Position numbers and translations under genes: made by a program. The notes below the pieces were generated by a model. The model saw nothing but the letters and a program-made list of their open reading frames with translations. It was not told the DNA's origin and searched no databases. A stretch of 63,732 nt of DNA, taken from NCBI GenBank assembly GCA_013298025.1, contig JAAFJE010000024.1:1-63732 (forward strand), given 5' to 3'. Numbering within the stretch: position 1 is the first letter of the stretch; each line of letters begins with the position of its first letter. Of this stretch, positions 13,509 through 63,732 are shown one piece after another. Source of the DNA: Cytophagales bacterium (lineage in GTDB: Bacteria; Bacteroidota; Bacteroidia; Cytophagales; Spirosomataceae).

Positions 13509-15224
13509 CTATAATTCTCTTTTTTTCAAGGCTTTTACGGCATAATCTGCCGCTCTTGCCGTAAGTGCCATATAGGTAATTGACGGATTGACACAGGACG
13601 AAGAAGTCATAGCTGCCCCATCGGTCACAAATACATTTTTACAGTCGTGTACTTGATTGAAAGCGTTCAACACCGATGTTTTAGGGTCACGCCCCATGCG
13701 GGCTGTTCCCATTTCGTGAATGCCCAATCCCAAATGCACCTCTGGACGGTTATAGCCTGTAATGTTTTTGAAGCCAGCGGCATCCATCATTTCCATTGCG
13801 GCGTTCATCATGTCTTTACGCATGGCTATTTCATTTTCGCCGAAAGCTGCATCAAACACAATCATCGGAATGCCCCATTGGTCTGTTCTGTTGGGGTCGA
13901 GGTACATACGATTGGCCGGATTGGGCAACACTTCGCCAAAACCACCAAAGCCGATAGTCCATTGCCCTGGCTTGGTTAAGTTTTGTTTAAAATCACCTCC
14001 AAAACCATCTGCATTTACGCCTCTGTTCCAACCTTCACGACTCGCACCGCCTTGGTAGCCAAACCCACGCAAATAGGCTTGTTTGTCATTGCCCCAGTTA
14101 CGAAAACGAGGAATATACAAGGCATTAGGGCGTTGACCATACACGTAGTCGTCTAAGAAGCCTTCAATGCTTGCGGTTGCTCCTACCCCCAAATGATGGT
14201 CCATGATATTGCGACCAACTTGGTCGCTGTCGTTGCCTAGCCCCTGCTGAAAACGGTTTGATTTTGAATTGAGCAACAAAGCGGCGGTATTCATCGCTCC
14301 TGCATTCAAAAAGATGATTTTGGCAAAATATTCTTCTACTTGCTTGGTTTGCTGGTTGATAACCCGAACGCCTGTAGCTTTTTGTCGTTGCTCATCGTAA
14401 ATAATTTCAGCCACAATGCTATCATGCAGCATGGTCAAACGCTTGGTCAGATTGGCCGCAGGAATCGCCCCCGAAAGTGAACTATAATACGCTCCATACG
14501 GACACCCACGCACGCATTTATTGCGGTATTGGCAAGAAGCCCTACCGAGCTTGGTATGCCATGCTTGGGGCTGCGAAAGATTGGCAACACGCCCCACCGT
14601 AACTGGGCGGTTGAATTTTTCGAGCATCTTTTGTTTGAAATGTAATTCGGGTGCAAACAAAGGCATGGCAGGTAGAAAATCGCCATCGGGAAGTACATCT
14701 AAGCCTTCTTTTTGTCCACTTACGCCAACAAATTTTTCTACATAGGTGTACCAAGGTGCTAAATCTTCGTAGCGAATAGGCCAGTCGATGCCAATGCCTT
14801 CTTTGGCGTTGGCTTCAAAATCTTGCTTATTGAAACGATACGACTGCCGTCCCCAGTGCATCGATTTACCGCCCGTATGATAAGCCCGAATCCAGTCGAA
14901 AGGACGCTTTTCGATGTACGGATTCGCTTTGTCATCGGTAAAAAACGAGCCAGCTTCTTCATTAACCAAATTTCCAAAGCGTTTGTTAGCCCAATGTTCT
15001 TCTGCCGAATGTGCCGTAATTTTGCCTCTATGCTCAATTTCCCACGGTTGTTTCATGGCGGTATCATAATCTTCAGGATGCTTTATTTCACGTCCGCGCT
15101 CAATCATCAACACCGTTAGCCCTTTTTCGGTCAGTTCTTTTGCGGCAAATCCTCCTGTCATGCCCGAACCCACAACAATGGCATCGAACGTGTTATTTTT
15201 GGTAGCTTTTATATTCAAATACAT
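13509..15224 (-). CDS. GMC-family FAD oxidoreductase
   Basis: A 571-residue glucose-methanol-choline oxidoreductase. Seen: the N-terminal FAD-binding motif DAIVVGSGMTGGFAAKEL, a GMC segment around GGKSMHWGRQ, a Cys-rich patch CRYRNKCVRGCPYG-like (C..C...C), and the C-terminal catalytic region GIHEMGTARMG followed by SCVNPSITYMALTARAAD, whose His and Asn are the usual active-site pair. The ATG at 15224 is preferred to a TTG nine bases upstream. The downstream-strand neighbour at 15257 encodes a gluconate-2-dehydrogenase-subunit-3-like protein, so the two probably form a periplasmic sugar, polyol or sugar-acid dehydrogenase. The substrate cannot be read from the sequence. No cleavable signal is seen on this subunit, so export by hitchhiking with the Tat partner is plausible. 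Confidence 0.88.
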   Translation of the reverse strand: MYLNIKATKNNTFDAIVVGSGMTGGFAAKELTEKGLTVLMIERGREIKHPEDYDTAMKQPWEIEHRGKITAHSAEEHWANKRFGNLVNEEAGSFFTDDKANPYIEKRPFDWIRAYHTGGKSMHWGRQSYRFNKQDFEANAKEGIGIDWPIRYEDLAPWYTYVEKFVGVSGQKEGLDVLPDGDFLPAMPLFAPELHFKQKMLEKFNRPVTVGRVANLSQPQAWHTKLGRASCQYRNKCVRGCPYGAYYSSLSGAIPAANLTKRLTMLHDSIVAEIIYDEQRQKATGVRVINQQTKQVEEYFAKIIFLNAGAMNTAALLLNSKSNRFQQGLGNDSDQVGRNIMDHHLGVGATASIEGFLDDYVYGQRPNALYIPRFRNWGNDKQAYLRGFGYQGGASREGWNRGVNADGFGGDFKQNLTKPGQWTIGFGGFGEVLPNPANRMYLDPNRTDQWGIPMIVFDAAFGENEIAMRKDMMNAAMEMMDAAGFKNITGYNRPEVHLGLGIHEMGTARMGRDPKTSVLNAFNQVHDCKNVFVTDGAAMTSSSCVNPSITYMALTARAADYAVKALKKREL

Positions 15225-15256
15225 TATTTTCAAGTGTTTATCTGTTCAAGTTGGAC

Positions 15257-15865
15257 TCAGTAAGCATACGCTTTTTGGTTGGGCTGGAGTTTGATGTTTT
15301 CAAGTTTACCCGGAATTTGCACATATTCAAAAGAAGCCTTAATGCCTTCTTCAGACGTAAAATAACCCAAAAGCGTCAGTTCTTTGATGAGTCGCCAGAA
15401 GGGTAATCCTTTGGGTGCTTTTTTGATGTCCTCGTGGTCGTCGTTATCGCCCATTTTAGTTTGTTTCATTTGACGGGCTACCATTTCAGCCTTGGTTTCT
15501 TGCTCCAAATATTTGAGCACTCCTTTCCGCTCACTTTCGTTGAGATCTAAAAATTTGGTTTGTTCTATCAATACCAATCCTTCCATAAAACTCTGTTGTT
15601 CGGCTTGTGCATAACAATCTTTCATCATCATTTCGATGAAAGCAGGGACACCTACGTCTTTGGCCCCCGGCGTATCGGTTTTAGGAAGAATCAACTCAGC
15701 TATTTCGGCCACAATGGTACGTTGCGACGAACTCAGGCTAAAGGCTGTTCCGTTGACGTGGGCTTGGGTGGCATTTTCCCAATGGTTCATCGCCATGAGT
15801 GTCGGGGCAGAAAAAGCACCGCCAAGCATCAAGGCTACATTTTTGATTACATCTCTTCTGTTCAT
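15257..15865 (-). CDS. Gluconate 2-dehydrogenase subunit 3-like protein, Tat signal
   Basis: A 202-residue small subunit. It starts MNRRDVIKNVALMLGGAF, a twin-arginine type leader (RRDVIK), and then has helical segments typical of the gluconate 2-dehydrogenase subunit 3 family (AEIILPKTDTPGAKDVGVPAFIE-like, seen here as AELILPKTDTPGAKDVGV). It is transcribed first, followed 32 bases later by the GMC catalytic subunit. In the family this protein assists export and maturation of the flavoprotein. The partnership is inferred from adjacency and is well precedented. Confidence 0.87.
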   Translation of the reverse strand: MNRRDVIKNVALMLGGAFSAPTLMAMNHWENATQAHVNGTAFSLSSSQRTIVAEIAELILPKTDTPGAKDVGVPAFIEMMMKDCYAQAEQQSFMEGLVLIEQTKFLDLNESERKGVLKYLEQETKAEMVARQMKQTKMGDNDDHEDIKKAPKGLPFWRLIKELTLLGYFTSEEGIKASFEYVQIPGKLENIKLQPNQKAYAY

Positions 15866-16007
15866 AAGATTATTCTAAAGGGTATTTTGTATGAATGACT
15901 GTGCAAATGCTTGCAGGTAGCCCAATTAATGCCTTAAAAGTACAACACAACAAGTTTAAATTATAGAAAATAAAAAAAATATACAAAAAATATTTTCTAT
16001 CAAATAA

Positions 16008-16075
16008 AATGGCGTATATGTTGAAGACCAGCATTGAAAAAGGCTTTCAACTCCGACTTCAACATATACGCCATT
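16008..16075. repeat. Long 19-bp-stem hairpin between rep and the oxidoreductase genes
   Basis: AATGGCGTATATGTTGAAG (16008-16026) is the perfect reverse complement of 16057-16075. The 30-base loop carries a second stem, TTGAAA/TTTCAA. It lies 31 bases past the rep stop codon, so it can terminate rep transcription, but a perfect 19-bp stem is longer than most terminators here. A REP-like element or a plasmid resolution/recombination site is possible. Confidence 0.65.
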
Positions 16076-16106
16076 CGCATTTGTAGTATTTTGCTTAATG
16101 CTATTC

Positions 16107-17483
16107 TTATTCTCTGTAGCCTAATGAAGCTAGTTCTTCTCTGAGTTTTTTCAGTTGGGCATCGTAGTATTTCACCAACTCTTCGTATTCTCTAAACATC
16201 GCCATTAAGACTGCCACCCAAAGCCCTTTGATGCTATCTCGTTTGAGGTTTTCTTCTAAACTTTTCTTAGCGTCGTAGAAATTATTGGCTTGAATTTTAT
16301 CCACAATCTTTTGTCTGAGTGCTGGGTCTTGCTCAAACAAGCGTTGTTCTAGTTGGTATTCTTTGGTTTTATACTCTTGCCATATTGTTTGAAGTGCCTC
16401 TCTTTTTTCCTTGATTTTTTCTTCTTTGTTTTGTCTTTTCTTTACTTCTTTTTTAGCGTTTTGTTGGGTTGCTTCGTACTTATCAAACAAGTTTGGCGTA
16501 TATACCATGGCGTTAAGCATTCCTCCGATATTTTTTACTTCGTTGCCTGCTTGCATATAATTGATGGTGTAAGCAATGCCTTTCTCGATTTGGTCGAGGG
16601 GAACTTCTGCTATCCATTTTTTTACTTTTGCCTTAGAAACATATTGTTTCACAAGTGCATAAATCCGCTCGGCGTTGGCATGGGCTGTTTGCTCGCTGGT
16701 TGGTGCTATTTCGCTTGCTGTAGCTTGGGTTTCGTCAGGATTATTTTCTTGCTTGTGTGCTGGATTATCGTAAATATGAAACGTAATAAACACCACTTTT
16801 TTCTTTAAAATCTCTTCTTCTATCTCAAAACAAATATCGGTATGTTTGCGTAAATCTTTTTCGGCTCTTTTGATAAGTCCTTTGAAATGACCATACAATT
16901 GATATTCGTTGGGTTCTATCGAAAGGAGTGTGCGTAATTCATCAACGCCAAATTTGCGTTTCCCAATTTTTTGATATTGTTTCAATAATTCAAACAACCG
17001 CACAGAATAAATACTTGAAAGGCTAAGGATATTGCGGATGTCGTACACCAAATATCGTTCTTTCAACTCTAATAAAAATGGTTTGAGTGCTGGATGAAAA
17101 CTCAACTTGATATAATCGCCTCGGCCTCGCTCTTCGGGCGTAGCGGTAGAAGCAACCAAATGGGTAGTAAACTGCTCTTTTCGGCCGTCGGCAAGGGTTC
17201 TGATGATGCCCACTTTTTTATCGAGTAGCTTTTCGCCTGCATACTTGATGCTGTCATATACTTGACCCGAATCGTGCAATCCAAATTCTCGCACGATGTC
17301 GCCTGCATTGATTTGGTATTCCCTAAAATCGGTGTCGTCGTGTTTAATCAACACAAGCATATAGGCAAACACCCTTGTTTCCCAAATATCAAATTTATAG
17401 CGTGCTTCTACAAGCTCATTGGCTTTCCGAATGAGCTTGATGTCAGACTCTATGATAGGTAATTCTTTTTTCTTAGGGGGCAT
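16107..17483 (-). CDS. Rep_3-family (RepB-like) replication initiator
   Basis: A 458-residue plasmid initiator of the Rep_3 superfamily, which binds iterons through two winged-helix domains and opens the origin. Seen: the N-terminal domain with KANELVEARYKFDIWETRVF and YQINAGDIVREFGL, then the second winged helix with LSLSSIYSVRLFELLKQY and RKFGVDELRTLLSIE up to about residue 245. A long charged, coiled-coil-like C-terminal extension (about 250-458, rich in K/E/Q) exceeds the usual family length. The gene is divergent from seven iterons and a large palindrome immediately upstream, the expected arrangement for an autoregulated iteron replicon. It supports replication in the host but cannot by itself tell plasmid from chromid. 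Confidence 0.92.
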   Translation of the reverse strand: MPPKKKELPIIESDIKLIRKANELVEARYKFDIWETRVFAYMLVLIKHDDTDFREYQINAGDIVREFGLHDSGQVYDSIKYAGEKLLDKKVGIIRTLADGRKEQFTTHLVASTATPEERGRGDYIKLSFHPALKPFLLELKERYLVYDIRNILSLSSIYSVRLFELLKQYQKIGKRKFGVDELRTLLSIEPNEYQLYGHFKGLIKRAEKDLRKHTDICFEIEEEILKKKVVFITFHIYDNPAHKQENNPDETQATASEIAPTSEQTAHANAERIYALVKQYVSKAKVKKWIAEVPLDQIEKGIAYTINYMQAGNEVKNIGGMLNAMVYTPNLFDKYEATQQNAKKEVKKRQNKEEKIKEKREALQTIWQEYKTKEYQLEQRLFEQDPALRQKIVDKIQANNFYDAKKSLEENLKRDSIKGLWVAVLMAMFREYEELVKYYDAQLKKLREELASLGYRE

Positions 17484-17512
17484 AGTATTGATAGGCTATT
17501 CAAAATACAAAT

Positions 17513-17574
17513 ATATCTATCATATTTAAAAACACAAGTGATATATCATGTGTATTTTTAAATATGATGGATAT
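17513..17574. promoter_or_regulatory. Large palindrome upstream of rep, candidate autoregulatory operator
   Basis: A 62-base imperfect palindrome: the left arm from 17513 (ATATCTATCATATTTAAA...) and the right arm ending 17574 match over about 24 bases with one substitution and a small indel, around a centre AGTGATATATCA. It begins 30 bases before the rep start codon. In classical iteron plasmids the initiator dimer represses its own gene at an inverted repeat sharing part of the iteron. Here GTGATA is shared with the iterons. Operator function is inferred. Confidence 0.65.
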
Positions 17575-17590
17575 TAGCTCTAGGTATTTT

Positions 17591-17898
17591 TCCGAATTAT
17601 TTGTGACACTTAGGCGTTTCTTTAGGTCAAAAAAACTTACCATTAAGCCTTTAAAAACACATTTGAGCGACTTTTTTACAATTGATTTTTATTCCGAATT
17701 ATTTGTGATACTTCCTACTTTTTGACAAGGCTAAGTGCTGTTGATTGACTTAAAAAATTGTATTTTTTTAATATTTCTCATTTCCGAATTATTTGTGATA
17801 CTTCCGAATTATTTGTGATACATTTCCGAATTATTTGTGATAGATGTATGTCATATTTCCGAATTATTTGTGATACTTGCCGAATTATTTGTGATACT
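17591..17898 (+). repeat. Seven iterons, probable replication origin
   Basis: Seven direct copies of a 19-20-base unit with consensus CCGAATTATTTGTGATAC start near 17591, 17693, 17783, 17803, 17825, 17858 and 17879. The fifth has GATAG, the first has GACAC, and the last starts GCCGAATT. Copies 3-7 are clustered at 20-33-base spacing (two to three helical turns) while 1 and 2 stand apart, nearer rep. Adjacent AT-rich DNA could be the melting region. Iterons next to a Rep_3 gene are a textbook oriV. Confidence 0.9.
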
Positions 17899-18497
17899 TG
17901 GGCTTGCAAAAAACTGAAAATCAATGCGTTACACAGCCTGAAAATATTTAAAAGTTGTTGTTATTAAAAAACAACAACACGAAAATTTTTGTGTGTTGTC
18001 TTTTTTTCATTACTAAAAATAGTAGTTTTTTAGGACTCGGTTTTTGACGGGCGTTTTCCAAAAAGAAAAAAACTTGTTAGGCAAACGCTTTTTCTTTTCC
18101 TTTATCCCCCCAGTTCCGGCCGCCCCCCCTTCATGGTTTTTCAAAAAACTTGTGGGTCAAGCTGCGTAGGTGTTGTGCATAAAAAGCTTGGGAAAAAAGA
18201 CTCATCGGAAAAAGGCATTTTGGGGCTTTTCCCCAATTCGTAATCCACATCAGCTTGAAAACTTTTGTACAGGACTACCCTAGCCAATCAAAATACTTGT
18301 AAAATATGCCCTTATTTGGGCGTTTTTCTGGAATGGTTGGTACTTATGTCAGAAAAGCCCTTATCGTGCCTCTCGTGTCAAAAAAAAGGTGTTTTTAGGC
18401 ATGGTAGTGTTGGATTGATTAGCAGGCAAGAATGTTTTTATAAAAAATTGATAAAAAGTAAAGAAGACAGACTAAAAATCATCATAAAATTTTCACC
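17899..18497 (+). other. Non-coding origin-flanking stretch
   Basis: No reliable gene. It contains inverted repeats (GTTGTTGTT / AACAACAAC near 17954-17978; ACAACAC / GTGTTGT near 17973-18000), followed by a C/G-homopolymer patch near 18106-18130 unlike the AT-rich surroundings. A 91-codon open frame at 18265-18540 has no recognisable features and runs into the parA palindromes, so it is not called. The stretch may belong to the functional origin or the parA leader. Confidence 0.5.
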
Positions 18498-18559
18498 TAT
18501 TTTGTCAAATATATTTGACAAAATAAATTATTTATCCTAATTTTAGGACAAATAATTTA
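18498..18559. promoter_or_regulatory. Two abutting palindromes before parA, candidate par operator/centromere
   Basis: The first is a perfect 28-base palindrome at 18498-18525 (core TTTGTCAAATATATTTGACA). The second, 18524-18559, is a 36-base palindrome with one mismatched pair plus the two central bases (arms TAAATTATTT / AAATAATTTA, inner TCCTAA/TTAGGA). They end eight bases before the parA start codon. ParA proteins with an N-terminal helix-turn-helix repress their own promoters by binding such sites, so autorepression and/or a parS role is inferred. Confidence 0.7.
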
Positions 18560-18567
18560 GACAACTT

Positions 18568-19515
18568 ATGCTTTCTCACGAACAAACCATACTATTTCTT
18601 AGAAGAAACCCAGCCCTTTCGGTTTCCATTCTTGAAAAAGAAGCGGGGCTACCGTCGAGCACCCTAGCCAAAGCCCTCAATGGCGATAGAATACTCAACA
18701 ACAAGCACTTAAACGCCCTCTATCCTATTTTGGTCAAATACGGATACAACGAAGTGCAACACAACAAAGCCAAGGTTATTTCTATTGTCAACCACAAAGG
18801 AGGCGTAGGTAAAACCACCACCACCATTAATTTGGGTAGAGCCTTAAATAAGCTAGGTTTTAGAGTGTTGTTGGTAGATATGGATTCTCAGGGCAATTTA
18901 TCGCAGGCATTAGGCATTGACAACCCTGAAAAACAGGTAGTTCACGCTTTATTGCAAAACGAAGAACTGCCCGTAGTGTCTATTGCCGAGCATTACGATT
19001 TGGCACCGAGCGATTTAGAATTGGCCTTTGCCGACCTCGAATTGGTGCAGGCGGTGGGCGGTGTAAACCAACTCAAAAACAAGCTTTATCCTTTGAGAGA
19101 CAAGTACGATTACATCTTGATTGACTGTCCGCCGGCGTTGAATATCTTCACCAATTCGGCTTTAGTGGCTTCTAACGGATGTTTGGTGACATTGCAACCA
19201 GAAGTTTCGGCCATGAAAGGTATCAATAATTTGTTTGAACGCATTACACAGGTAAGAGAACGCATCAATCCAGAGCTAATGGTAGAGGGTATTGTGCTAA
19301 CTATGGTTGATAAACGCTTGAAAGTACACCGAGATATGATTGAATACATCCAACAAACCCTAAACAACTTTAGAATTTATGCTACAGAAATCAGAAACAA
19401 TGTAGCCGTAAAAGAATCGCAGATTTCACAAATCAACCTTTTCGACTACGACGAGCATTCTAATGGGGCAACAGACTACATGAATTTTGCCAAAGAGTTT
19501 TGTGCACACACCTAG
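18568..19515 (+). CDS. parA: ParA-family partition ATPase with N-terminal HTH
   Basis: A 315-residue ParA/Soj-type ATPase that segregates low-copy replicons. Seen: residues 1-60 form a helix-turn-helix-like domain (LPSSTLAKALNGDRILNNKH), then the deviant Walker A KGGVGKTTTTINLG (KGGVGKT at residues 77-83), switch LLVDMDSQGNLS, Walker B-like YILIDCPPALN, and the typical C-terminal helices. The N-terminal DNA-binding domain places it with ParAs that also act as transcriptional repressors, fitting the palindromes directly upstream. parB follows after 127 bases. Confidence 0.94.
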   Translation: MLSHEQTILFLRRNPALSVSILEKEAGLPSSTLAKALNGDRILNNKHLNALYPILVKYGYNEVQHNKAKVISIVNHKGGVGKTTTTINLGRALNKLGFRVLLVDMDSQGNLSQALGIDNPEKQVVHALLQNEELPVVSIAEHYDLAPSDLELAFADLELVQAVGGVNQLKNKLYPLRDKYDYILIDCPPALNIFTNSALVASNGCLVTLQPEVSAMKGINNLFERITQVRERINPELMVEGIVLTMVDKRLKVHRDMIEYIQQTLNNFRIYATEIRNNVAVKESQISQINLFDYDEHSNGATDYMNFAKEFCAHT

Positions 19516-19642
19516 GGCAGATTTTGATTTACAGGTTTTGGTAAAAATATTTTTAACCAAAATCAGTTATCCAGCATCCTAAATAGCCTTAAAACTTCCG
19601 TACAATACATAAGTTACAACCAGTACTCATTCTTATTTGATT

Positions 19643-20557
19643 ATGGCAAAAAAATACATGGGCAGCCTCGGAACAGCCTCTATCATAAAAGACCAAAGCC
19701 TTTTGAATCACGAGGCCATTAAGCACCAAATTCATATTATCGACGAACTGCGTGACCTGATTCCGCCACTGCAAGAAGAAGAATATGCACAATTAGAAAA
19801 AAATATCTTAACAGAAGGCTGTAGAGAAGCCTTAATGATTTGGCAAACTACCAAAAATGTCTTGGACGCTACCACTGCCGACAGCACTACGGTGTATGTC
19901 TTGGTCGATGGACACAACCGCTATGGTATTTGTCAAAAACACCAAATCAATTTTAAAATACACTTGGTTTCTTTCGATTCGTTGAAAGAAGCAAAAGAGT
20001 ATATGATTGATAATCAGTTAGGAAGACGCAATTTGATTCCTGAGCAAGCCTCTTATTTGAGAGGTCTTCGGTACAACAACGAGAAGCTTGAAAAAGGCAA
20101 ATATACCCGTGATGACCATAAGGGTCAAAATGACCCTTATGCTTTAGAGGTCAAAAAAGAGAGTACTTCACTCAAACTTGCCAAGCAATACAACGTGAGT
20201 GAAAAGACGATTAAGCGAGATGCTGAATTTGCGGAAGGTATAGATTTGCTTACGCCAAGCCTGAAAAAAGATATATTATCGGGAAAGGTAAAAGCCAAAA
20301 AATCGACGATACAACAACTGGCAAAGCTTGATAGCGTACAGCCCATGTCGATTACGTCTTTGGAAGAAGCATCGAATCTGCTTGAAATCGAAACACCTCA
20401 AAAAAGTACAATCAATCTTGCGATAGACAACCAAGAAACGAAAGAAATGCTTAAACAAAAAATACAAAGCCTTGCCGTACAGTTGGCAGCAAACCCCAAT
20501 TCAGACCTTTGTGATGAGTTGATTCAGGCTTCTCAAGCCTTGAAAAAGTTGCTTTGA
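19643..20557 (+). CDS. parB: ParB-like centromere-binding partition protein
   Basis: A 304-residue ParB/Srx-fold protein. The ATG at 19643 is preferred to an in-frame TTG at 19637. Seen: the N-terminal ParB nuclease-like fold with LVDGHNRYGICQKH (in place of the canonical GERR box region) and DNQLGRRNLIPEQASYLRG, then a helix-turn-helix around LAKQYNVSEKTIKRDAEFA. The C-terminus is short and charged. It is 127 bases downstream of parA and likely cotranscribed. Its role is binding parS and stimulating ParA for replicon segregation. A 25-base palindrome lies inside the gene (20117-20141). An intrinsic terminator follows. Confidence 0.88.
   Translation: MAKKYMGSLGTASIIKDQSLLNHEAIKHQIHIIDELRDLIPPLQEEEYAQLEKNILTEGCREALMIWQTTKNVLDATTADSTTVYVLVDGHNRYGICQKHQINFKIHLVSFDSLKEAKEYMIDNQLGRRNLIPEQASYLRGLRYNNEKLEKGKYTRDDHKGQNDPYALEVKKESTSLKLAKQYNVSEKTIKRDAEFAEGIDLLTPSLKKDILSGKVKAKKSTIQQLAKLDSVQPMSITSLEEASNLLEIETPQKSTINLAIDNQETKEMLKQKIQSLAVQLAANPNSDLCDELIQASQALKKLL
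20117..20141. promoter_or_regulatory. Intragenic palindrome in parB, candidate parS
   Basis: CATAAGGGTCA (20117-20127) and TGACCCTTATG (20131-20141) form a perfect inverted repeat around AAA. It codes for part of the linker (HKGQNDPYA) before the HTH. Extra GGTCA/TGACC half-sites flank it at 20112-20116 and 20149-20153. parS sites inside par genes are known in other systems, but here this is inference. Confidence 0.4.
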
Positions 20558-20565
20558 TAATAAAA

Positions 20566-20589
20566 ACGAGTGGGTGTAAGCCCACTCGT
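20566..20589. terminator. Terminator between convergent parB and Gfo/Idh gene
   Basis: ACGAGTGGG (20566-20574) pairs with CCCACTCGT (20581-20589) nine bases after the parB stop. The T-tract is weak, but the stem is GC-rich and sits between converging genes. Confidence 0.65.
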
Positions 20590-20655
20590 TGCATTATTGC
20601 TTGAAGCTATGAACCGTTTGTCCAAATCCGAATAAGCCTATTAATTTTTTTATCA

Positions 20656-39310: not shown

Positions 39311-39919
39311 TATTGAGTGATTGAGCGAATGAGTGATTTAGTGATTTTATTAAATAGTAGCTTTAAATGAGTACATAAATTGAAAGTACAAAGCCATAAC
39401 TCAACATTCACCAACTCAAAATTTATCAAAACATTTACGGTAAAGCATTAATTTAAAGTTCAATAGATTCAATTACTACTACAAACCAGATGAATATAAT
39501 TGTCAATAATAGTTGAACCCAAAGGTAGTAATTCGACTTTAAAAACTGTTTTTGTCTATAAAATTTTAAGAATTGATACAGATTAAAGAAGGTTATTGGA
39601 ATAAAAATTAGCCCTAAATGAATAAAATGGTTTGTTTCTGTGTAAACGAAACTATTGTCACCTTCTCCAAAAAATAGCATGGAAAATAGGGCATAACCGT
39701 AATAAATGACCAACCAATGCCCAACTTCAAAAGTCAATATTTTAATGAGAGGTAAAAAATCTAATTTGTAGATTGAAAAACTATTGCGTTTCATAGCTTA
39801 CATGGTTAAAATCAATTGTAAAAAATAGTTAGCGTTCACGCAGCCACTTTCCAATTTACTAAAATCTGAATATCAAATACTTGAATCACTAAATCACTCA
39901 TTCGCTCAATCACTCAATA
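39311..39919. repeat. 0.6-kb segment bounded by perfect 36-bp inverted repeats
   Basis: Bases 39311-39346 and 39884-39919 are exact reverse complements (arm begins TATTGAGTGATTGAGCGAAT). The right arm overlaps the last codons and TGA of the response regulator, and the left arm ends five bases from the kinase TTG start. The enclosed DNA holds one gene (39453-39794). It looks like a small insertion or two facing copies of the GAGTGA-type repeat. No transposase, and no target-site duplication is obvious by eye. Confidence 0.8.
39453..39794 (-). CDS. 113-residue membrane protein between the inverted repeats
   Basis: A protein of unknown family with about three hydrophobic helices (VGHWLVIYYGYALFSMLFF, HLGLIFIPITFFNLYQF and WVQLLLTIIFIWFVVVI), starting MKRNSFSIYKLDFLPLIK. 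Composition is coding-like. It interrupts the regulator-kinase gene order of an otherwise tight operon and is the only gene inside a perfect 36-bp inverted-repeat pair, suggesting it arrived with the segment. Confidence 0.65.
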   Translation of the reverse strand: MKRNSFSIYKLDFLPLIKILTFEVGHWLVIYYGYALFSMLFFGEGDNSFVYTETNHFIHLGLIFIPITFFNLYQFLKFYRQKQFLKSNYYLWVQLLLTIIFIWFVVVIESIEL

Positions 39920-47408: not shown

Positions 47409-47638
47409 AATTGATAACCGCAAGGGTTGCGACGGTTTTTATATTGCTATAGTGTTTCAGATTGTGTAATTGATAACCGCAAGGGTTATCGCTACAAGGG
47501 TTGTGATGGTTTTTATATTGCTGTTGTGTTTCAAATTGTGTAATTGATAACCGCAAGGGTTATCGCTACAAGGGTTGCGACGGTTTTTATATTGCTATAG
47601 TGTTTCAAATTGTGTAGCGGCAACCTTCACGGTTGCCG
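47409..47638. repeat. Tandem REP-type repeats before the RAYT gene
   Basis: Three tandem units start AATTGATAACCGCAAGGGTT. Units 2 (47468-47541) and 3 (47542-47615) are 74 bases and almost identical. Unit 1 (47409-47467) is 59 bases and lacks an internal 15-base segment. Each holds a small hairpin (GATAACC-gcaa-GGGTTATC in units 2 and 3). A last hairpin CGGCAACC/GGTTGCCG (47618-47638) abuts the transposase gene. Such hairpins are the usual substrates of the neighbouring REP-associated transposase. Confidence 0.85.
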
Positions 47639-47668
47639 AAATGGAATCAATATTTTACACCTAATCTT

Positions 47669-48232
47669 ATGCCAAACAAAAAATCAAGACATTCTATTCG
47701 ATACAAAAACCACGATTATTCGGCTGGTGGCTCATATTTTATCACGATTTGTTCAATCAATCGTGAGCATATTTTTGGAGAAATAATAGACGAACAAATA
47801 CATTTATCCTATCTAGGTTCAATTATTGAAACAGAATGGCTAAATCTACCAAATCGTTTTGCTTCGGTTGAACTAAATACTTTTCAAATTATGCCAAATC
47901 ATCTTCATGCCATTATTCATATTAATAAAAACAAGATTCAGTACGATAAGGCTACGTTGAGATTCTCCAAACACACACTTTTAGGGAATATTATCGGGAG
48001 CTTTAAATCTTTAGTTTTTCATACATTTTATAAATATTTAAAAGATAAGCACTTAATACAACAACAATCCGCTAAAATATGGCAAAAAAATTATTGGGAG
48101 CATATTATTCGCTTTGAAAATGAATTATGCAAGTGCCAACAGTATATCAGATCTAATCTAAAAAGGTGGAGTAAAGACACTGATAATTTAGAGAAACTAT
48201 TATTGAAAATGGAAGAAAAAAGTACTTCCTAA
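47669..48232 (+). CDS. REP-associated tyrosine transposase (RAYT, Y1/HUH type)
   Basis: A 187-residue single-strand-specific HUH nuclease of the TnpA_REP group. The ATG at 47669 (MPNKKSRHSIRYKNHDYSAG) is preferred to a TTG at 47633 that lies inside the last REP hairpin. Seen: the opening YSAGGSYFITICSINREHIF, the HUH pair in MPNHLHAIIHI, and the catalytic Tyr region KIWQKNYWEHIIR. All key residues appear intact. It probably nicks and moves the REP hairpins encoded just upstream, and is a domesticated single-copy element rather than an IS with terminal repeats. Confidence 0.9.
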   Translation: MPNKKSRHSIRYKNHDYSAGGSYFITICSINREHIFGEIIDEQIHLSYLGSIIETEWLNLPNRFASVELNTFQIMPNHLHAIIHINKNKIQYDKATLRFSKHTLLGNIIGSFKSLVFHTFYKYLKDKHLIQQQSAKIWQKNYWEHIIRFENELCKCQQYIRSNLKRWSKDTDNLEKLLLKMEEKSTS

Positions 48233-55089: not shown

Positions 55090-55719
55090 ATGGGATTCTT
55101 AAAAAATATTTTTGGACCAAGAAAAGAAGAAGTTTGGGTACATTTAGAGCAAGAAATCAACGCTCGATTAATTTTTGAAGAGCGTTTTTTGACAAATGAA
55201 GCGAAAGTTATTTTAGAACATAAAAATTGGACAATCATTTTGGATGTCTTTCATCGTTCGACAGGAAAGACATCAACGCCTTATACTCGGATGCGTTGTG
55301 CTTATATCAACAAAGATGATTTTAGGTTTACGATTTATCCAGAAGGACTTTTTACAGACCTCGCTAAGTATTTTGGAATGCAAGATATTGAAATTGAAGA
55401 CAAAATCTTTGACGATACTTTTGTACTAAAAAGTAAAAATCCAGACAAAATCAAAGCGTTGTTTACTGATGCAAACATCAAAAATGATTTTCTGGCCTTG
55501 GCGGATTTATCGCAGTTTCAAGTAAAAGTACGAGATGATGAAGGTTTTTGGGGACAAAGCTTTCCAGACGGCGTTGATGAATTGTATTTGGAGGTGGTTG
55601 GCATTCTCAAAGATTTAGAAAAACTCAAAATCATGTTTAAGCTTTTTGCTGAAATCATGGATAGACTTTGTGAAATGGGTTCAGCTTATGAAGCTCGCCC
55701 AACAATTAATTTGAGGTAA
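55090..55719 (+). CDS. Uncharacterised 209-residue cytoplasmic protein
   Basis: Starts MGFLKNIFGPRKEEVWVHLE with no signal peptide or membrane helix. Coding-like, mixed alpha/beta: repeated aromatic strands (NWTIILDVFHR, RFTIYPEGLF), FDDTFVLKSKNPDKIKALFT, and a helical C-terminus (ILKDLEKLKIMFKLFAEIMD). The FVLKSKNPDKIKALF-type segment recalls DUF3137-like or related uncharacterised Bacteroidota proteins, but the assignment is weak. A TAtcTTTC element 10-17 bases before the ATG resembles the TAnnTTTG box with one change. No functional link to neighbours is seen. Confidence 0.7.
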   Translation: MGFLKNIFGPRKEEVWVHLEQEINARLIFEERFLTNEAKVILEHKNWTIILDVFHRSTGKTSTPYTRMRCAYINKDDFRFTIYPEGLFTDLAKYFGMQDIEIEDKIFDDTFVLKSKNPDKIKALFTDANIKNDFLALADLSQFQVKVRDDEGFWGQSFPDGVDELYLEVVGILKDLEKLKIMFKLFAEIMDRLCEMGSAYEARPTINLR

Positions 55720-63486: not shown

Positions 63487-63515
63487 TTGATTCACTCATT
63501 GTAGATTTACCTTTG
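63487..63515 (+). promoter_or_regulatory. Bacteroidota-type promoter near the right edge
   Basis: TTG at 63487-63489 (within TTTTG) and TAccTTTG at 63508-63515 are spaced by 18 bases, an excellent match to the TTG-N17-20-TAnnTTTG consensus. No obvious coding region begins soon after it. The following 200 bases are unusually GC-rich for this DNA and contain short palindromes. Confidence 0.6.
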
Positions 63516-63732
63516 CAAAATAATATTTGGTAATGAGGGAGTCAAGCCGATCACTCAATGGTACTTAGATACTGGAGTGATGTTTGGTTGCTCCTTCATG
63601 ACAAGTGCTGATAACGATCGGAGCGGCGACCCGCCAGTTCATTGGGTATTTTAACCCGTCTCACAATGTTGTTTATAGGCATTTAATTGTTTCATCTTTT
63701 TTCTTTTTAGTTATGGGTACTTATCTTGGAAT
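63516..63732 (+). other. Possible leader or small RNA region at the window end
   Basis: Downstream of the promoter no start codon opens a long frame. Short hairpins are seen (GGCG-acc-CGCC at about 63625-63635; GGGT/ACCC at about 63646-63658). This may be a structured 5' leader of a gene beyond the window or a small RNA. Neither is established. Confidence 0.3.

Follow-up and report, generated by a model that had tools for sequence, protein, structure and literature searches.

Organisation of the replication and partition module

The window analysed here is the whole draft contig C17 (G000:C17; 63,732 bp) of a genome assembled into 53 contigs (5.44 Mb). It carries a complete replication and partition module in one block (16008-20590; Table 1), as an earlier sequence-only reading had proposed, and the individual parts named there, namely a Rep_3 initiator, seven iterons, a rep-proximal palindrome and palindromes before parA, were all recovered. 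The genes adjoining rep encode a GMC oxidoreductase and a gluconate-dehydrogenase subunit.

Table 1 Features of the replication and partition block in the window.
Feature	Position	Strand	Description
Inverted repeat after rep stop	16008-16075	-	19 bp, perfect, 30-nt loop; likely rep terminator
rep	16107-17483	-	Rep_3 initiator, 458 aa; WH1, WH2, helical C-terminal extension about 264-453
Palindrome directly before rep	17513-17574		62 bp, imperfect; likely Rep-dimer operator
Seven iterons	17592-17896	+	17 bp, CCGAATTATTTGTGATA, up to 2 mismatches; starts 17592, 17694, 17784, 17804, 17826, 17859, 17880
DnaA-box-like motif	18174-18182	-	TTATGCACA; single, weak
Two palindromes before parA	18498-18525; 18524-18559		likely ParA autoregulation operators
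parA	18568-19515	+	315 aa; Walker-type ATPase, N-terminal extension
parB	19637-20557	+	306 aa from TTG start; ParB-type fold predicted
Candidate parS	20117-20141		25-bp palindrome inside parB, CATAAGGGTCAAAATGACCCTTATG; in-frame peptide HKGQNDPY
Hairpin after parB	20565-20590		likely terminator

Rep matches Pfam Rep3_N and Rep3_C (PF01051, E 5.6e-29, and PF21205, E 2.6e-8; WH1 and WH2). The predicted structure (mean pLDDT 78.3, pTM 0.42) combines a pair of winged-helix domains with a C-terminal helical extension, and its PDB matches are mostly RepE (best) and related Rep proteins, with RctB at ranks 45, 47 and 48. WH1/WH2, iterons and a palindrome before rep are shared with RepE of plasmid F (Rep_3; PDB 2z9o, 1rep), whereas the window Rep differs in its iteron sequence and in the extension of about 190 residues. 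This extension had been described as long and unusual; it is long, but it is a conserved feature of the Rep family, aligned in 22 sequences (the window plus 21 of 35 fetched loci; six of the 22 end early because no more than their matched range was taken). Among 1970 matching plasmid records, Rep aligns over at least 80% of the protein in 17.

The closest Rep proteins (G006_C21 and G005_C128) are 74% identical, but the ParA and ParB of G006_C21 reach only 45%. Conversely, the closest Par proteins, those of G006_C88, G005_C159 and G004_C5 (ParA 86%, ParB 68-71%), are accompanied by Reps of 34% identity. Rep and Par have thus had separate histories.

The seven iterons compare with a mean of 0.03 copies, and at most one, in 100 shuffles. 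Both sequence and spacing of the iteron (TATCACAAATAATTCGG) are kept in the circular plasmid pSP2_1 of Runella sp. SP2 (NZ_CP031031.1; 93,030 bp; Rep 63%, ParA 57% and ParB 46% identical to the window), where the same core recurs at intervals of 21-33-22-20-92-102 against 21-33-22-20-90-102 in the window; G005 and G006 also keep both and have additional copies. On an Arcicella contig the 21-33-22 spacing is kept with a different iteron sequence, and each Rep_3 locus of this genome (C17, C27, C5 and two, C6a and C6b, on C6) has an iteron of its own, five in all.

The roles given to operators and terminators in Table 1 are inferred from position and from precedent, RepE and ParA both being autoregulated. 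By eye, 9 to 16 bases of the cognate iteron recur in the palindrome before rep at L026, L028, L043, C6b and C27, compared with 5 to 6 common bases between operator arm and iteron in the window; at G006_C21, G005_C128, C5 and C6a no convincing operator was seen before rep. TTTGTC/GACAAA-type palindromes like those before parA also precede parA of pSP2_1, G005_C159 and G004_C5. The inverted repeat after rep is read as a terminator because a hairpin of unrelated sequence follows the rep stop in six of ten other loci (G006_C21, G005_C128, pSP2_1, L028, L043 and C6a), starting within 15 bp of the stop in those six as against 34 bp in the window; in L026, C5, C6b and C27 it is weak or absent. The same 19-bp repeat was also considered as a site common to several replicons, and this was rejected, the window copy being alone in this genome.

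ParA and ParB

ParA is a Walker-type ATPase by its matches (AAA_31, E 3.1e-52; phrog_164, ParA-like). ParB matched no Pfam or NCBIfam family, and its profile gave no meaningful match to PDB sequences. The model of ParB is of modest confidence (mean pLDDT 64.7) and TM-scores are low; up to an E value of 0.001 it matches 25 PDB entries, titled Noc, ParB, Spo0J, RK2 repressor (which we take to be KorB) and Pnob8-like ParB-N. The protein thus resembles a ParB-type protein in its predicted fold, which is like that of ParB/Noc/Spo0J (7ol9, 6sdk, 1vz0, 5k5d), but differs from these in lacking a Pfam or NCBIfam match and in carrying a palindromic site in its variable linker. Sixty plasmid records match ParB; among the 40 listed, 21 are labelled 'hypothetical protein', 10 are unannotated and 7 are given as ParB N-terminal domain.

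A candidate parS within parB

One palindrome is repeated around the par genes on contig C6; its core occurs once in the window, within parB, as the only parS-type site there. This palindrome was absent from the features listed in the sequence-only reading. Scanning of par loci revealed one design, with 11-base arms around a CA-NNN-TG centre and arms differing between replicon types; each of the four par loci on C17, C27, C6 and C5 has arms of its own. Where a site lies inside parB, it is in the variable linker that joins the N-terminal domain to the HTH; the encoded peptides differ (HKGQNDPY, HKDQNGPY, HNAQNEHY, HKSQNGTY, HKGHFDPY), with the DNA palindromic throughout. When synonymous codons were drawn at random for an unchanged peptide, the observed pairing was reached with P 0.0002 to 0.0154 at ten chosen sites. 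The design is also found outside parB, with up to ten identical copies arrayed on C5. The B. subtilis parS sequence is presumably unrelated to this candidate.

The two ends of contig C27 have 118 bp in common within an array of such sites, and across the join ParB reads as one uninterrupted frame of 409 codons that contains 22-aa repeats and encodes the site six times. C27 is therefore very likely circular, at about 37.9 kb, with an uncertain array copy number, since the assembly breaks inside the array.

A pattern with free inner bases (CATAANNNNCAAAATGNNNNTTATG) matched 81 sites, spread over 28 of the 150 family genomes, and the reversed control pattern gave none in the same 150. These sites comprise 27 distinct sequences; of their 108 cells of free bases, 89 are complementary, against 43 on average and at most 64 after shuffling. 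At 30 pattern-matched loci fetched from the 81 sites, ParB was matched in 27 (all except L181, L186 and L188) and the site lay inside parB in 23; L190 and L191 overlap L163 and L164, and for distinct places the counts are 25 and 21 of 28, respectively. Five of the fetched loci (L165-L168 and L177) are replicons also used to build the ParB profile. One locus, L174, lies on a 1.38-Mb contig.

Palindromes of the CA-NNN-TG type with at least 9 of 11 pairs were found within 1.5 kb of parB at 30 of 41 loci, with 85 sites in 154 kb near parB against 47 in 1.04 Mb elsewhere, about 32 of the latter belonging to distant clusters. At the stricter threshold of at least 10 of 11 pairs, 25 of the 41 loci have a site (63 sites near parB, 35 elsewhere), and resampled par regions gave none in 19 rounds and one in a further round. 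Adding perfect palindromes of another centre raises the count at 9 of 11 pairs to 34 of 41 par loci: the centre is a different one in the palindromes at R. rosea (Runella rosea) p2, L200 and L203, and at L206 the palindrome stands upstream of parA. Five loci have sites only beyond 1.5 kb, four sets lying about 3.4 kb off and upstream of rep and one about 33 kb away; these distant sets could belong to rep. No recognisable parS of this design was seen at G006_C21 and G005_C128, the closest relatives in Rep. Among complete plasmid records, 15 of 18 loci carry such a palindrome within par or close to it, with the CA-NNN-TG or a different centre; at the threshold used for these records none was found at L193, L197 and L207. 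These counts are not independent, as sites, loci and genomes are related and some plasmid records overlap the pattern matches (apparently pSP2_1, R. rosea p3, pRUNSL05 and S. oryzicola p1). A palindromic parS-type site of conserved design is thus present near parAB, as expected of a ParABS system, with two loci lacking any such site.

An autoregulatory or structural role for the palindrome in parB, or its origin as the by-product of a conserved peptide, in place of a centromere function, is improbable in our judgement. Its location in a coding region would fit such a role, as would the position of four of the five distant site sets upstream of rep, but the design also occurs outside parB, as in the array on C5, and the palindrome persists where the peptides differ, with a pairing that synonymous randomisation rarely reaches. 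We consider it likely that these plasmids share a ParB family, unmatched here in Pfam and NCBIfam, which carries its centromere in its own gene as in-frame linker units (in C27 as 22-codon repeats with one parS each), and in which arms that vary yet remain complementary would form an address code separating co-resident plasmids.

Plasmid or chromosomal location

Circularity had been suggested as a check, and an exact overlap between the two termini of C17, sought at lengths of 20 to 399 bp, was not found. C17 begins with the 126 bp that end C44, and C44 in turn begins with the 126 bp that end C22, with the reading frame unbroken across both joins (820 and 286 codons). The resulting chain C22-C44-C17 (119,660 bp) contains no tRNA. 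The window gave no Rfam match and no Pfam match to a relaxase, T4SS/transfer or core-gene family among 39 proteins (E 0.01 in one search, 1e-8 in others), and no core genes were seen by eye on C44 and C22. The right end of C17 is a dispersed repeat of about 240 bp common to the ends of C3, C4 and C39, of which 127 bp are identical in all four; it gave one chance-level Rfam match only (E 0.33) and no match to plasmid records.

Because the rep-iteron-par block is intact and tRNAs, Rfam matches and relaxase, T4SS or core families are lacking over the regions searched, a plasmid is the most likely state of the C22-C44-C17 chain. We consider it probable that C17 belongs to a low-copy plasmid of 119.7 kb or more, with a Rep-iteron origin, a ParABS system whose putative parS lies in parB, and arms that would permit coexistence. 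The large plasmid put forward in the sequence-only reading is thus supported, and of the rRNA and core genes by which it was to be checked none was seen in the window, by Rfam and by Pfam among the 39 proteins, respectively; its alternative of a chromid is unsupported, there being no core gene among those proteins or, by eye, on C44 and C22, and so is the suggested mobility of the glycan and metal loci, with no transfer gene among the same 39 proteins.

Of the metabolic flanks described in the same reading, the 'copper' label corresponds to MbnP- and MauG-type proteins only. The C22-C44-C17 chain carries glycan and respiratory genes; C44 and C22 carry glycoside hydrolases, SusCD pairs and regulators, a set that by eye reads as xylan use, and a glycan-use cluster is thereby placed on a probable plasmid. 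The GMC oxidoreductase is 92-93% identical to genes near the rep orthologs in G006 and G005 and 77% identical to one on an R. rosea plasmid record (NZ_CP030852.1), and the GMC/gluconate-dehydrogenase pair also matches contig C3 of G004, which bears parAB. On contig C15 of G003 the same pair occurs with a GFO/IDH gene and gamma-glutamyltransferase; there is no match to the window Rep on this contig and no rep or par match in the 60 kb fetched, which counts against a purely plasmid home of the rep-flanking genes. Other window segments have their best matches on different contigs of relatives.

The G003 arrangement would fit integration of the rep/par block, as a plasmid, into the chromosome, the glycan genes hence being chromosomal, a reading that could also draw on the open ends of C17, on the recurrence of the right-end repeat at the end of C3, whose last gene resembles cysD, on a gamma-glutamyltransferase whose best match in the genus-mate G004 lies on the chromosome (C6, 82%), and on the two Rep_3 loci carried by contig C6 of the present genome. 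We regard it as unlikely in view of 119.7 kb without tRNA and without core genes seen (by Pfam in the window, by eye on C44 and C22) and of the rep-flanking genes, which adjoin rep orthologs in G005 and G006 and occur on plasmid-like contigs or records elsewhere. Among the seven contigs of G004, moreover, the window Rep matches C2, C3 (weakly), C4, C5 and C7, with no match on C1 or on the 5.43-Mb C6 (5,432,081 bp).

The repeated right end raises the further reading that C17 stops at an rRNA operon, the replicon then being the chromosome or an rRNA-bearing chromid. Four contigs do share the same terminal 127 bp, and a 5S match lies at an end of four contigs (one below cut-off), but the 16S leader seen in G004 is unrelated to the 127-bp repeat, and in this genome that leader has its matches 2 to 363 bp from contig ends on C7, C19, C9 and C37, not on C17. 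The right end of C17 was therefore rejected as an rRNA leader, and we give this reading hardly any credence. Contiguity with an rRNA operon, which the sequence-only reading had named as evidence against a plasmid, was thus tested in part, and the shared end proved different from the leader. A 16S search of three genomes gave no match and was uninformative, rRNA stretches being masked or missing there.

Proposed mode of replication and partition

From the parts, their conservation and the palindromes, all read in the sequence, we infer the following binding and regulatory steps for the proposed plasmid. By analogy with RepE, whose monomer and dimer behaviour is the precedent, Rep monomers would bind the seven iterons and open the origin, and Rep dimers would bind the palindrome before rep and repress the gene. 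ParA would act as the partition ATPase and repress its own promoter through the palindromes before parA; ParB would load on the one 25-bp palindrome that its gene contains, and ParA would move the ParB-loaded DNA. Replicon-specific parS arms, together with different iterons, may let several Rep_3 plasmids coexist.

The module is of a known kind (Rep_3 plus ParABS), with what appears from its sequence to be an undescribed ParB/parS variant; a full-text literature search returned no paper recognised as describing a parS or centromere for these plasmids. The predicted parS makes partition of plasmids with this ParB testable, iteron and parS together offer typing markers for Cytophagales plasmids, and the palindromes provide a natural series for studying the evolution of ParB-parS specificity.

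A parS inside the parB coding sequence, as in the candidate here, has a precedent in Bacillus subtilis, where parS-359 lies within the parB gene (PMC4442127); that system is chromosomal, whereas the window module is probably on a plasmid. The Runella plasmid pSP2_1 has two palindromes of the same design within its parB. It differs from the window in that parAB lies downstream of rep and is directed towards it, and the part of its annotation seen contains BREX and caspase-family genes rather than glycan genes.

Palindromes and Rep_3 loci outside the window

The ten palindromes on contig C5 of the same draft genome are mostly spaced 76-80 bp apart and lie upstream of rep, ~3.5 kb away from parB; they likely constitute a parS array. 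The TGAAGTGGTAAAATTTACCACTTCA-type palindromes of Persicobacter psychrovividus pPP3 equal the window's CA-NNN-TG design in length but differ from it at the centre.

Contig C6 of this genome (single contig, 176 kb) carries two Rep_3 loci, one at ~13 kb and the other at ~140 kb, whose iterons differ. Within the 20 kb examined, parAB was found near the second locus only and not near the first. C6 is possibly a cointegrate.

Location of repeats, palindromes and proteins
Feature	Location	Remark
Palindromes, identical, 25 bp (n=10)	C5 (L011) 15175-16047	
TGAAGTGGTAAAATTTACCACTTCA-type palindrome, four copies	pPP3 (L206) 1072-2109	upstream of parA
Perfect inverted copies, 36 bp each	window 39311-39346, 39884-39919	
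REP-associated tyrosine transposase-like protein	window 47633-48232	
209-aa protein	window 55090-55719	
Dispersed repeat, ~240 bp	window 63493-63732	extends into contig end

Other features of the window

The dispersed repeat, for which folding predicts a strong stem-loop (z -2.6), recurs at the ends of contigs C3, C4 and C39, and its first half is found in two related genomes, at five contig ends (G003) and one site (G004). An rRNA identity was rejected. The 209-aa protein had no match in Pfam and NCBIfam searches; its counterpart (83% identical) on G005_C128, a relative's locus, adjoins a molybdopterin oxidoreductase, itself 96% identical. The transposase-like protein scored 53.8 bits, below the cut-off of 80. 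Many short repeats related to the 36-bp inverted copies are present in the same genome and its relatives.
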